From assembly GCA_011389735.1 (NCBI GenBank), contig JAABTS010000009.1, positions 1-35,409 on the forward strand: 35,409 nt of DNA, given 5' to 3'. Position numbers and translations under genes: made by a program. Numbering within the stretch: the first letter of the stretch is position 1; the number at the start of each line of letters is the position of its first letter. The notes under the pieces are model-generated. The model had not been told where the DNA came from. It was given only the letters and a program-made list of their open reading frames with translations, and searched no databases. This DNA comes from Desulfobacteraceae bacterium (GTDB lineage Bacteria; Desulfobacterota; Desulfobacteria; Desulfobacterales; JAABTS01). Positions 6,298-21,751 of this stretch are shown here, in pieces.

Positions 6298-6336
6298 TAA
6301 AAAAAAGGATGCGGCGGCCGCCGCATCCTTTTTTTA
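6298..6336. terminator. Strong bidirectional intrinsic terminator
   Basis: A perfect palindrome, GGATGCGGCGGCCGCCGCATCC (6307-6328 with its A/T extensions), is flanked by a run of A on the left and of T on the right. The fully GC-rich stem with poly-U on either strand fits termination of both the plus-strand helicase gene and the minus-strand HesB-like gene, which converge here. Confidence 0.95.
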
Positions 6337-6370: not shown

Positions 6371-6685
6371 TTAGTGGCAGGTCCCCCCGGAGCTACCACA
6401 AGAATTGCAGCCGCCGCCAAGCTCGACGCCCGCTGAAATCATAAACCCATACTCTTTAAAGTCAACTTTTACCGGTTGTACACGTTCCATGAAATCTTTA
6501 TTGATCAGATATTTAAACCCTTCAATATCGAAAACTTCATCATTGTCTTTTGGCTCATCCAGAGCCAACGCCAGTGACGGGCCCGCTCATCCGCCTTCGT
6601 TCAGGTAAATCCGAATCGGCAAAACGTCTTTACCTTCAAAATACTCGGCGATTTTCGCAGTCGCCGACGGTGTAATTTCAATCAT
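6371..6685 (-). CDS. HesB/IscA-like iron-sulfur protein, predicted selenoprotein (Sec33 encoded by TGA)
   Basis: Reading from ATG 6685 (AGGAGG ribosome site nine bases upstream) gives 104 codons with one in-frame TGA at codon 33 (6589-6587). The frame is open before and after it: IRIYLNEGG, then TGA, then AGPSLALALDEPKDNDE, continuing to a C-terminus with GGGCNSCGSSGGTCH (C93, C96, C103). Position 33 aligns with the first conserved cluster-ligand Cys of IscA-family proteins (C35 in E. coli IscA), and HesB-like proteins with Sec there are a known deltaproteobacterial selenoprotein family. A 7-bp hairpin sits at the right distance after the TGA (listed separately). Translating only from the internal ATG at 6568 would discard half the fold and has no reason to exist. 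The likely role is Fe-S cluster carriage or redox; the exact client is unknown. Confidence 0.88.
6550..6568 (-). promoter_or_regulatory. Candidate bacterial SECIS hairpin
   Basis: On the mRNA (minus) strand the segment reads TTGGCTC-TGGAT-GAGCCAA: a perfect 7-bp stem with a 5-nt loop. The loop begins 26 nt after the in-frame UGA and has G at its second and third positions. This agrees with the bacterial SECIS rules of an apical loop roughly 16-37 nt downstream of UGA with a G among the first loop bases. It would recruit SelB-GTP-Sec-tRNA. Confidence 0.75.
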
Positions 6686-6839: not shown

Positions 6840-7367
6840 TCAATCGCTGAAGGCGTTGATATATCCGGTGTAAACATCATAATCGCCTTTGGAGAAAAGA
6901 GCGAAAACCACTTTCTCAATAGAAGGGGTTCGGGATAGGCGTTCACTAACAGTATCGACCGCAATTTTGCAGGCGTCTTTTATGGGGTATCCGTAGACGC
7001 CGCAGCTAATGGCTGGAAACGCGATAGCGCGGACTCCGTTTTCAACCGCGAGTTCCATGCTGTTCCGGTAACAGGCGGCCAGTTTCTCCGCATCCGCCGG
7101 ATCGCCTTTGTAAACCGGCCCCACCGTATGAATGACATGGCGCGCTTTCAGATTGTATCCTTTTGTTATTCGCGCTTCCCCTGTAGGACACCCTCCAATG
7201 GTTTTGCATTCTTCCAGAAGCTGCGGGCCGGCCGCCCGATGAACGGCGCCGTCCACTCCCCCGCCGCCCAGCAACGTTTTATTGGCCGCGTTGACAATGG
7301 CGTCCACATCCAGTTGCGTAATATCCCCTTGAACCACTTTCATTCGATTCAGGATTTCTTTTTTCAT
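6840..7367 (-). CDS. Macrodomain protein, O-acetyl-ADP-ribose deacetylase / ADP-ribosyl hydrolase (YmdB-like)
   Basis: 175 aa from ATG 7367, essentially the YmdB length (177). Hallmarks in order are the NAAN motif in DAIVNAANKTLLGGGGVDGA, with the conserved Asp of the VDGA loop, then RAAGPQLLEEC, GCPTGEARIT, and the phosphate-binding loop ISCGVYGYP. These residues bind ADP-ribose and hydrolyse O-acetyl-ADP-ribose or remove ADP-ribose from acidic residues. The start is chosen from a GGGGG Shine-Dalgarno just upstream (AAGGGGGAATGCG then ATG). A longer frame from 7448 would add 27 residues encoded partly by an intergenic repeat and lacks homology-like features. Two genes upstream in the same orientation lies an ADP-ribosylglycohydrolase. 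Confidence 0.93.
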   Translation of the reverse strand: MKKEILNRMKVVQGDITQLDVDAIVNAANKTLLGGGGVDGAVHRAAGPQLLEECKTIGGCPTGEARITKGYNLKARHVIHTVGPVYKGDPADAEKLAACYRNSMELAVENGVRAIAFPAISCGVYGYPIKDACKIAVDTVSERLSRTPSIEKVVFALFSKGDYDVYTGYINAFSD

Positions 7368-7424
7368 CGCATTCCCCCTTGTCGTCGTTCGATTACAAAC
7401 GAATTGAATGTTGAAACACTTCGG

Positions 7425-7528
7425 AACTTTCCGCAAATCAAGTTTCACTGCATCGTCGCTCCGGCTTGAACGCCATAGTATGATTTCAGGCCCGGCGCCT
7501 TGTGAAATTCAATCTCCGCAAACCTATA
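7425..7528 (+). repeat. IR105 element copy A
   Basis: Copy of the roughly 105-bp imperfect inverted repeat. Left arm: TTCCGCAAATCAAGTTTCAC. Right arm: CTTGTGAAATTCAATCTCCG, then CAAACCTATA. Its right end overlaps the last few bases (stop codon) of the minus-strand FmdB-like gene. Confidence 0.8.
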
Positions 7529-8018
7529 GATCATAGAGCGTTTCGTCATAATTGGGCGGCAGACGCCGCCGGCCGGCGCTGTCCTGTTTTTTACCCGACA
7601 TTTTAAACGGATCTTCGTTTTCTAGAAGATCCCCCATCTGCGCTTCAATTTCATCCGGATCATCGCCTTTTTCCATCCTGGAAAGCGCTTCCTCCATGCC
7701 GTCTCCAAGTTTAAGCCCCGTCATACCGGTCAGTTTCCGCATCAAATCAGCCGCCTGCCTGGGGTCGTCTTCGTTAATTGAATCCGCCTCGCACGCCAGA
7801 TAACCCATCGCCTTTTCCATTTTAGACTCGTCAAAAGGCAGGTCGTCCATATCGCCCTCCTCTTTGGCTTTGCCGCTGACCGAAAAAAGAGACATACGCC
7901 TTGAAAGCTCAACATCCAGGCATTTAGGGCATACCGGTATTTTTTCGGTGTTCACCGATCTGGAAAAAAAATTGAATATTGTGTTACATTCCTGACAATA
8001 AAATTCATATATCGGCAT
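7524..8018 (-). CDS. FmdB-type zinc-ribbon protein with acidic C-terminal extension
   Basis: 164 aa. The first 45 residues are an FmdB-like zinc ribbon: MPIYEFYCQEC with C8/C11 and CPKC with C30/C33, a predicted four-Cys zinc site. The rest (about 50-164) is charged and acidic with predicted helices (DDLPFDESKMEKAMGYLA, LTGMTGLKLGDGMEEALSRM) and no family I recognise. FmdB-like proteins are small putative regulators of unknown mechanism. A GAGGTG ribosome site precedes the ATG. It is flanked on both sides by IR105 repeat copies and sits between two ADP-ribose hydrolase genes, but co-transcription is uncertain because the spacers are long. Confidence 0.85.
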   Translation of the reverse strand: MPIYEFYCQECNTIFNFFSRSVNTEKIPVCPKCLDVELSRRMSLFSVSGKAKEEGDMDDLPFDESKMEKAMGYLACEADSINEDDPRQAADLMRKLTGMTGLKLGDGMEEALSRMEKGDDPDEIEAQMGDLLENEDPFKMSGKKQDSAGRRRLPPNYDETLYDL

Positions 8019-18908: not shown

Positions 18909-20261
18909 ATGGCGGAGAACCTGAAAATGAACGCCACGGAGCCTGGCGATTATACCGTCGGCAGTCACATATTCAGAGATTACACCTTGAAAGGCGTCCT
19001 TGGAGAAGGCAGTTTCGGGATCGTATATCTTGTGGAAAACCGGATCGGCGTTCCGTTTGCGCTCAAGGTGCTCAACAAAAACGTGAATATGGAAAAGCGC
19101 GGTCTGGAAACCGTGATGCGGGTTCATTCAAACCGTTTGATCAGCGTTCAGGATTACGGAAAAACCGTCAAAGGCGTGGACAGTATCCTGATGGAATACG
19201 TATCGGTGAATCTCGAAGATTTGCTGAACCAGGGACGGCTTGGTGAAATGAAAGCCCGCCATTACTTTGTCGAGATCATAAAGGGCCTGAAAACGCTTAA
19301 AGAACACGGTATTCTCCATCGGGACATCAAGCCGGGCAATTTGTTTGTCCTTGAAGATATCATTAAAATCGGCGATTTCGGAACGGTCCGGTTTCTTTCC
19401 GGGGAGACCAGTTCCATGAGCGAGGTCGCCGGGACCTTTCATTATATGGCGCCTGAGCGGTTCAAAAAAGAATACGGCTATTCCGTGGATCGATGGTCCG
19501 CCGCCGTAGTTTTCTATAGAATGCTCACAGGCCGGTATCCGTTTGACGGAAAGGATCGAACCGAAATATTCGGCGCCATAATGATGGAAGATCCGAACTT
19601 GAGCATCCTTCCTGAACGGTATAGACCCTTCTTTAAAAAATGCTTTGAAAAAGACTCCGGCAAACGCCATCAAAGCTTGCAGGATGTTCTCGACGATCTG
19701 AAGCGGATTCCGAGCGGCGGGCCTGAAAGCGCGGAAACCCAAAAAACCGTGGTTTCGGATGTCAAAAAAGACATCCATGAAGAAAGAACGCTGATCCATT
19801 TACGACGAACCCCTCATACAGTCCGGGATGAAGAATTCAAAACGTTTTTCAGGCTGAACAATAAACGGCGCCCTCAGGAATATATCGAAAACGTATATGT
19901 GGACAACGGCGACGGAACCGTTACGGATTTCGCCACGGGCCTTACATGGCAAAAAGGCGGATCGATAAACTACGTCACCTATGATAACGTGAAAGCATAT
20001 GTCGATGAAATCAACGCGGAACGATTCGCGGGCTATGACGACTGGCGGGTTCCCACGGTCGATGAATTGATGTCCCTGCTGGAGCCTGAGAAAAGCTCCA
20101 CTGATTTGTATATAGACCCTGTTTTCGATAAAATGCAGAGCTGGTGCTGGTCGTCCGATGTACGGTCGAACGGAACGGTATGGATCGTTTATTTCAGATA
20201 CGGCCATGTTTACTGGAACGTGATAAAATTCATCAGCTTTTTGAGGCTGGTGCGATCCTGA
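18909..20261 (+). CDS. Ser/Thr protein kinase with C-terminal Lcl (DUF1566) domain, paralog 1
   Basis: 450 aa. The Hanks-type kinase domain spans about 24-265: Gly-rich loop LGEGSFGIVY, catalytic K53 in FALKVL, HRDIKPGN with D139, DFG 156-158, activation segment with SMSEVAGTFHYMAPE, and DRWSAAVVFYRMLTG. All catalytic residues are present. A linker leads to an Lcl/DUF1566 domain (about 325-450) with VDNGDGTVTDFATGLTWQK, DDWRVPTVDELMSLL and QSWCWSSDV. No transmembrane segment, so the kinase is cytosolic, unlike most PknB-type kinases. Lcl domains usually occur in surface or secreted proteins, so the pairing is unusual. M7 (ATG 18927, GGAG upstream) is an alternative start. Paralog 2 follows after 164 bp. 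Confidence 0.93.
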   Translation: MAENLKMNATEPGDYTVGSHIFRDYTLKGVLGEGSFGIVYLVENRIGVPFALKVLNKNVNMEKRGLETVMRVHSNRLISVQDYGKTVKGVDSILMEYVSVNLEDLLNQGRLGEMKARHYFVEIIKGLKTLKEHGILHRDIKPGNLFVLEDIIKIGDFGTVRFLSGETSSMSEVAGTFHYMAPERFKKEYGYSVDRWSAAVVFYRMLTGRYPFDGKDRTEIFGAIMMEDPNLSILPERYRPFFKKCFEKDSGKRHQSLQDVLDDLKRIPSGGPESAETQKTVVSDVKKDIHEERTLIHLRRTPHTVRDEEFKTFFRLNNKRRPQEYIENVYVDNGDGTVTDFATGLTWQKGGSINYVTYDNVKAYVDEINAERFAGYDDWRVPTVDELMSLLEPEKSSTDLYIDPVFDKMQSWCWSSDVRSNGTVWIVYFRYGHVYWNVIKFISFLRLVRS

Positions 20262-20425: not shown

Positions 20426-21751
20426 ATGAAAGAAAGTCCGAACGTCATCCGGTTGAATCGAAAAAAACGGCGTGAAACCCGGCTCGAAGAAACCGCCAAA
20501 GGCAAAGAGGTATTCAAGGAATACAAACTGAGGGAGCTTTTGGGTGAAGGCAGTTTCGGGAAAGTGTTTCTGGTCGAAAACCATGTCGGAGTTCCGTTTG
20601 CGCTGAAGGTGCTTCACAGAAAAGTGAATATGGAAAAGCGCGGTTTGGAAACGGTGATGAAAATCCGTTCCAACCGCCTCGTAAGCCTTCTCGATCACGG
20701 AAAAACCGTGGACGGCGTCGATTGCGTCCTGATGGAATATATTCCCGTCAATCTCGACGATGTCCTGAAACGAGGCGCATTGGACCGGGAAACATCCAGG
20801 AAATATTTCGAAGAAATCCTTAAAGCCCTCAAGGTTCTCGAAGACCATCGAATCATTCACCGGGACATTAAGCCCGCCAATCTTTTTGTGCTGGAAGATA
20901 TTATCAAAATCGGCGATTTCGGCACGGCCAAATATATCCCGAAAAACAGTTTTATTATGAGCGATGTGGCGGGCACATTCAATTTTATGGCTCCGGAACG
21001 GTTCAGAAAGGCGTATGGGTTTTCCGTCGACAGGTGGTCCGCCGCGGTGATTTTCTATCGTATGCTGTCGGGTGAATTCGTCTTCGACGGCGAGGACAGA
21101 ACCGATATCTTCGCATCCATCATGATGGATGAGCCGAACCTGGATATCGTTCCCGAAGAATACAGAGATTTTTTCACTCGCTGCTTTCAAAAAAAAGTGG
21201 AGCGCCGTCATTCCGGCGTTGGAGAAATGTTGTCGGAATTGAGCCGGATTCAGGTTTCCTCCGAAGCGCGGAAACAAACCAAAATTCGTCTCAGAAGCGA
21301 TCCCATGACCGTTCAGGCCCCCAGGTTCCGAGATATATTCAAAGTGGACGGCCGCCGGCGCCCCCTTCGATATATCAAGAACGATTTCAGGGACAATGGC
21401 AACGAAACGGTTACGGATCTTGCAACCGGCGCCGTGTGGCAAAAAGCCGGATCGCCGTCTTATATGACCTATCAACGTGCAAATGCTTATATCGATGAGC
21501 TGAACCTGGATCGGTTCGCCGGTTCCGAAAACTGGCGGCTGCCCACCGTCGACGAACTTTTATCGCTCCTTGAACCTCAAAAACGATTGAACGGTCTGTT
21601 TATCGATCCCATTTTTGACAACACTCAGACGTGGTGCTGGAGTTCGGATGTCCGCACTTCCGATTCGGCCTGGATTGTGTATTTCGACAAGGGAAACGTT
21701 TACTGGAACAACATGAAGTTCATCGGATTCGTCCGCGCTGTTCACACCTGA
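20426..21751 (+). CDS. Ser/Thr protein kinase with C-terminal Lcl (DUF1566) domain, paralog 2
   Basis: 441 aa, colinear with the preceding kinase along its whole length, including blocks such as VNMEKRGLETVM and NLFVLEDIIKIGDFGT, so the pair arose by tandem duplication. Kinase domain about 33-255: LGEGSFGKVF, K61, HRDIKPAN (D147), DFG 164-166, and MSDVAGTFNFMAPE. The Lcl domain (about 315-441) has NETVTDLATGAVWQK, ENWRLPTVDELLSLLEP and QTWCWSSDV. A basic N-terminus (NRKKRRETRLEE) replaces the acidic one of paralog 1. No membrane segment. Both paralogs look catalytically intact; divergence in the Lcl loops and linkers suggests different ligands or partners. The ribosome site is weak. Confidence 0.93.
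   Translation: MKESPNVIRLNRKKRRETRLEETAKGKEVFKEYKLRELLGEGSFGKVFLVENHVGVPFALKVLHRKVNMEKRGLETVMKIRSNRLVSLLDHGKTVDGVDCVLMEYIPVNLDDVLKRGALDRETSRKYFEEILKALKVLEDHRIIHRDIKPANLFVLEDIIKIGDFGTAKYIPKNSFIMSDVAGTFNFMAPERFRKAYGFSVDRWSAAVIFYRMLSGEFVFDGEDRTDIFASIMMDEPNLDIVPEEYRDFFTRCFQKKVERRHSGVGEMLSELSRIQVSSEARKQTKIRLRSDPMTVQAPRFRDIFKVDGRRRPLRYIKNDFRDNGNETVTDLATGAVWQKAGSPSYMTYQRANAYIDELNLDRFAGSENWRLPTVDELLSLLEPQKRLNGLFIDPIFDNTQTWCWSSDVRTSDSAWIVYFDKGNVYWNNMKFIGFVRAVHT

Follow-up and report, generated by a model that had tools for sequence, protein, structure and literature searches.

Selenoproteins of the HesB-like type have been reported before. In PMC1794560 (2006) they are counted as one of 25 bacterial selenoprotein families, with 11 selenoproteins, and the tables of that paper place members in Syntrophobacter, Syntrophus, Desulfovibrio, Geobacter and Desulfuromonas. 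The family is also named in PMC1242214 (2005) and PMC1088965 (2005), and Table 1 of a 2026 review (PMC13188914) gives it the motif UxGP under the model TIGR01911. Furthermore, PMC11097638 describes how mutagenesis and 75Se labelling revealed such a selenoprotein in the archaeon Methanococcus maripaludis. The gene that we describe here is one more example of this family, which was already catalogued in 2005-2006, and therefore the find is an ordinary one. It has in common with the HesB-like selenoproteins of PMC1794560 a deltaproteobacterial distribution, and the tables of the same source bear out the remark of an earlier note on this DNA that such selenoproteins are known from deltaproteobacteria.

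The gene was found in a window of 35,409 nucleotides, by which we mean the whole stretch of DNA that was analysed (Desulfobacteraceae bacterium, contig JAABTS010000009.1). It occupies positions 6371..6685 of the minus strand, from an ATG at 6685 to a TAA at 6373-6371, and it has 104 codons plus the stop, with only one in-frame TGA, codon 33 (6589-6587, minus strand), which was recognised from the translation and the family comparison and which we translated as Sec. The earlier note had given the right coordinates without a strand; the strand is the minus one, and translation of the plus strand of 6371-6685 yielded no HesB/IscA-like protein. The strong ribosome site that it had described can be read directly, AGGAGG at 6700-6695 on the minus strand, 9 nt 5' of the ATG, and the open frame that it had seen on both sides of the TGA is confirmed by the 104-residue translation and its match to a full protein profile. 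Under the standard code two pieces of the gene remain, a stub of 32 aa and an ORF of 65 aa (6371..6568, minus strand) with a TTG start at 6568, the latter being the C-terminal half that the note had expected to be left over. This ORF is likely the truncated form that a gene call would give, and the selenoprotein reading mends the split gene. Searches of the window with Rfam at gathering thresholds and with ARAGORN returned no matches.

The presence of a 65-aa ORF with its own TTG start would agree with the UGA being a real stop, which ends a 32-aa peptide and is followed by a separately started protein. However, both halves align to one family. With Cys substituted for Sec, the read-through product reached 114.5 bits against the NCBIfam model NF038090 (IscA_HesB_Se, cut-off 85), covering profile positions 1-101 of 101, and, with the same substitution, 33.2 bits against Pfam PF01521 (Fe-S_biosyn, gathering cut-off 26.3). 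When the genome was searched with NF038090, reading through stops, the window gene obtained 107.5 bits with one TGA inside. In addition, the relatives with Cys have no stop between the two halves and the choice of codons just 3' of the TGA is constrained, as detailed below, so that we give a real stop almost no credit.

Regarding the other models, the product obtained 35.8 bits against TIGR01911 (HesB_rel_seleno), and 33.4 bits in the genome search, where the cut-off is 66.35; accordingly, the protein is assigned to NF038090 instead of TIGR01911. Its UAGP fits the UxGP given for HesB-like selenoproteins in Table 1 of PMC13188914, but it scores below the cut-off of the TIGR01911 model used there. 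It was also under the cut-offs of TIGR00049 and of the IscA, SufA and ErpA models, far under in the case of these last three equivalogs. Compared with NF038090 we found no difference; the match is full-length and above the cut-off, and codon 33 stands for Sec or Cys in all 63 family sequences read, the window's own included. The solved relatives retrieved by sequence were 1nwb (Aquifex AQ_1857), two entries for the IscA of E. coli, 1s98 and 1r94, which go under the name YfhF, and the E. coli SufA structure 2d2a. In the alignment with 1s98, residue 33 falls on the Cys of the TSGCSG motif of that protein, in agreement with the earlier placement of the TGA at a conserved Cys of the IscA family, and this Cys is presumably the first ligand Cys of IscA.

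A structure predicted from 28 aligned sequences had a mean pLDDT of 81.0 and a pTM of 0.68, and a Foldseek search of the PDB with this fold matched IscA 1s98 (TMq 0.71) and 1r94 (0.69), as well as the [2Fe-2S]-bound IscA 1x0g and SufA 2d2a. The Cys-rich tail, residues 91-104, had pLDDT values below 50, and the model leaves a contact between Sec33 and the tail unplaced. The identity of the product to its aligned relatives was 41-66% for 26 of the 27 and 36% for the other one (L031), and among the invariant columns of the 28 sequences were residue 33 and Cys96, one of the three tail Cys residues together with Cys93 and Cys103. By a rough count, 35 of the 50 Sec forms and all 13 Cys forms have a CxxC in the tail, and every sequence has at least one Cys there. 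The product shares with the A-type carriers of E. coli (IscA, SufA and ErpA) the fold, the position of Sec33 on the conserved IscA Cys and a Cys-rich tail, whereas it differs from them in having Sec for Cys and a tail of the CxxC...C type, where IscA has CxC.

The earlier note had proposed asking whether the relatives have Cys or Sec at codon 33. We read 63 loci, including the window's own: 12 from named metagenome-assembled genomes that came out of a single scan (10 of them with Deltaproteobacteria or Desulfo- groups in the title, the other 2 with Pseudomonadota or Proteobacteria), 31 from whole-genome searches, among which is the window's own, and 20 further stretches. The codon was TGA in 50 of them, including all 12 named loci, and TGC/TGT in 13, with no third kind; since most of the Cys forms (10 of 13) had been selected for having no stop, the 50:13 ratio is no frequency. 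The class-wide search with NF038090 found a match in 260 of 291 genomes (254 above the cut-off) and none above the cut-off in 14 control genomes, and among the matches listed 13 had no stop and every other one had one TGA. The relatives share ancestry, which means that these counts are not independent and that the p-values given below are only indicative. Sec and Cys copies also occur together: in genome G235 a Cys copy (L042) adjoins a Sec copy (L079) on contig C403, and both kinds were found in six further genomes (G035, G064, G106, G213, G268 and G274). The two forms of one small protein offer a natural comparison, in which the codons of the hairpin described next are nearly fixed only in the Sec forms.

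The perfect 7-bp hairpin of the earlier note was recovered at 6568-6550 on the minus strand (TTGGCTC-TGGAT-GAGCCAA), with its loop UGGAU at 6561-6557, starting at the 26th base past the TGA, i.e. with 25 nt between them. The bacterial SECIS model, as given with Fig 2 of PMC13188914, asks for a loop of 3-9 nt, a stem of 4-16 bp, a G within the first two loop positions, a distance of 16-37 nt from the UGA and an energy of at most -7.5 kcal/mol. The window hairpin, with its loop of 5 nt, its stem of 7 bp and its 25 nt from the UGA, lies within this model, and the 19 nt folded alone reached -10.2 kcal/mol in a structure that shows 6 of the 7 pairs. When the single 49-nt stretch was folded against dinucleotide shuffles, no significant signal emerged, as 59 of the 200 shuffles folded equally well (z -0.50). 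The stem nevertheless exceeds what chance would give: when the 19 codons past the TGA were recoded synonymously 20,000 times, 306 of the recodings gave a 7-bp stem when G-U pairs were included and 9 a 7-bp Watson-Crick stem.

The comparison among relatives is more telling. The hairpin core GGCTCTGGAYGAGYC is present in 45 of the 50 Sec forms and absent from all 13 Cys forms. At codon 41, 49 of 50 Sec forms have GCT (the exception, L025, has a Val codon) versus 3 of 13 Cys forms, codon 42 is CTG in 50 of 50 versus 9 of 13, and codon 44 is GAG in 48 of 50 versus 4 of 13; as a background, counts over 23 window ORFs gave GCT for 83 of the 725 Ala codons and GAG for 128 of the 621 Glu codons. The five inner pairs of the stem form in 48 to 50 of the 50 Sec forms. 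The fourth pair is G-T in place of G-C in 10 of these forms, and the third shows one two-sided change from C-G to T-A, in L025. The window's stem has a sixth pair, which forms in just 30 of the 50, and a seventh, which does so in 13. A stem of at least 4 pairs at this site with the loop G is kept in 47 of 50 Sec forms and in 0 of 13 Cys forms, so the proposed SECIS check came out in favour of the hairpin; when the energy limit and the demand that it be the best hairpin were added, the numbers were 38 of 50 and 0 of 13, which means that 12 Sec forms miss at least one constraint of the published model as scored in this analysis. The energy of the best hairpin at any allowed place had a median of -11.1 in the Sec forms versus -3.7 in the Cys forms (Mann-Whitney p 0.005, among sequences that are related). 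Nevertheless, another rule-passing hairpin, of at most -11.2 kcal/mol, occurs elsewhere in 4 of the 13 Cys forms, and therefore energy alone separates the two groups poorly. The strong evidence is comparative, coming from related sequences and not from the folding of a single one.

These comparisons also bear on a pseudogene or a sequencing error, that is, a Cys codon TGC/TGT misread or mutated to TGA in a broken IscA-like gene. TGA is indeed only one base away from TGC and TGT and the genome assembly is divided into 477 contigs, as might suit such an error, but an error confined to this sequence is difficult to reconcile with a TGA at the same codon throughout the 50 family sequences, with a hairpin kept at synonymous sites in the Sec forms and not in the Cys forms, and with selA, selB, selD and tRNA-Sec in the same genome. 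We consider a pseudogene or error very improbable. Both this explanation and the real stop were rejected, on the grounds given for each.

The earlier note had suggested looking for selA, selB, selC and selD, and the complete set was found in the genome of the window (6.5 Mb, 96.86% complete). Profile searches gave 599.7 bits for selA, 359.2 bits for selB and 372.8 bits for selD, which has its own TGA inside, and the tRNA-Sec scored 73 bits, its anticodon TCA being confirmed by ARAGORN. Among 14 control genomes, selA was above the cut-off in 1, selB in 2, selD in 2 and tRNA-Sec in 5, and therefore the tRNA score is the least specific of the four. Furthermore, 3 of the 10 matches to PF02662 (FlpD) in this genome had a TGA inside, so the organism looks like one that uses selenoproteins. 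These three FlpD-type genes, with one in-frame TGA each, are located at 3908-4276 of contig C260, 2748-3119 of contig C277 and 36317-36685 of contig C90 of the genome (G000), and they are likely further selenoproteins. As regards other genomes, selA was found in 19 of the 20 tested: all 5 that have a Cys copy, all 5 that have a Sec copy, and 9 of the 10 for which no NF038090 match was listed. It is mostly present with or without the gene, and thus the Sec trait alone fails to predict the HesB-like gene.

Taken together, the position of the codon, the homology, the conserved hairpin and the Sec machinery of the genome give good support to the interpretation of the earlier note, and we predict with high confidence that the product of the gene is a selenoprotein of the HesB/IscA-like type, belonging to the NF038090 subfamily and carrying Sec at codon 33. 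In bacteria, Sec insertion by SelB and Sec-tRNA on a hairpin is an established mechanism. Here, SelB carrying Sec-tRNA would bind the hairpin 25 nt beyond the UGA, selenocysteine would enter at codon 33 in place of termination, and the outcome would be a 104-residue protein similar to A-type carriers. Sec33 and the Cys-rich tail (Cys93, Cys96 and Cys103) would then most likely bind an Fe-S cluster or iron and hand it on, or carry out thiol/selenol redox chemistry. Sec insertion in this organism, the binding of a metal or cluster and the client are what we infer from the sequence comparisons.

The likeliest role, and one towards which we lean with some reserve, is that of an Fe-S carrier which would use a selenolate ligand in binding and delivering clusters or iron. 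A serious rival is that the same selenoprotein has a selenol redox or detoxification role and is not an Fe-S carrier. Selenoproteins commonly hold Sec in redox sites, as the abstract of PMC1794560 states, and a disruption mutant of the M. maripaludis HesB-like protein still fixed nitrogen, an unpublished observation mentioned in PMC11097638, where the function of that protein is described as unclear; the nearest upstream neighbours, a macro-domain gene and a zinc-ribbon gene, would also suit such a role. However, Sec33 stands at the place of the conserved IscA Cys and the predicted fold matches IscA, including the [2Fe-2S]-bound 1x0g, so that we regard the redox role as possible but less likely.

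The macro-domain gene (6840..7448, minus strand; PF01661, 161.5 bits) lies directly upstream of hesB and is preceded by the zinc-ribbon gene, of the FmdB type (7524..8018, minus strand; PF09723, 35.8 bits), for which we assume the name FmdB. A same-strand macro-domain homologue ending at most 600 nt upstream of the Sec/Cys codon was found in 13 of 42 other loci, and a 14th locus, L051, has one at 699 nt. A same-strand zinc-ribbon homologue was upstream in 10 of the 42, although the upstream flank, of at least 900 nt in 40 of the 42 loci, is too short to reveal the zinc-ribbon gene every time. Either gene was upstream in 16 of the 42 and both in 8, all these being raw counts, and the order zinc-ribbon, macro domain, hesB was seen with both genes in L021, L042, L050, L051, L054, L057, L058 and L060. 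The window's helicase was near in 3 of the 42 other loci and its NifH/CooC-like ATPase in 3 as well. FmdB is among the Sec-containing families in PMC13188914. A literature search for pairings of HesB, macro domain and FmdB gave one phage paper and two reviews in which HesB and FmdB both occur; the table passages of the reviews name the families and make no mention of such a gene link. This neighbourhood is a modest lead on function. As a separate observation, an ADP-ribosylglycohydrolase gene (PF03747; 8550-9317, minus strand) lies two genes upstream of the macro-domain one, and therefore ADP-ribose-related genes are close together here.

A bolder proposal is that cells of this lineage have no A-type-carrier-like protein besides Sec-HesB, which would act together with the upstream macro-domain and zinc-ribbon proteins as a conserved module; if it were true, selenium would be required for an Fe-S or redox step linked to ADP-ribose metabolism. 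Searches with NF038090, TIGR00049 and TIGR01911 found no second IscA-like gene in the genome, a result that is not final as the assembly is 96.86% complete. A six-frame genome search with PF01521 gave 0 matches, but it missed the window's Sec gene itself and thus cannot support the absence of other IscA-like genes. We consider the proposal unlikely.

Between the convergent helicase and hesB genes there is a symmetrical hairpin with A/T tails (6300..6335), whose minus-strand fold, at -25.3 kcal/mol, was equalled by none of 200 shuffles (z -6.12). A terminator pattern scanner listed none at these positions; the hairpin is probably a two-way terminator common to both genes. Elsewhere in the window, two consecutive protein kinase genes on the plus strand (18909-20261 and 20426-21751), each with a C-terminal Lcl_C domain (PF07603), are apparently a tandem duplication.
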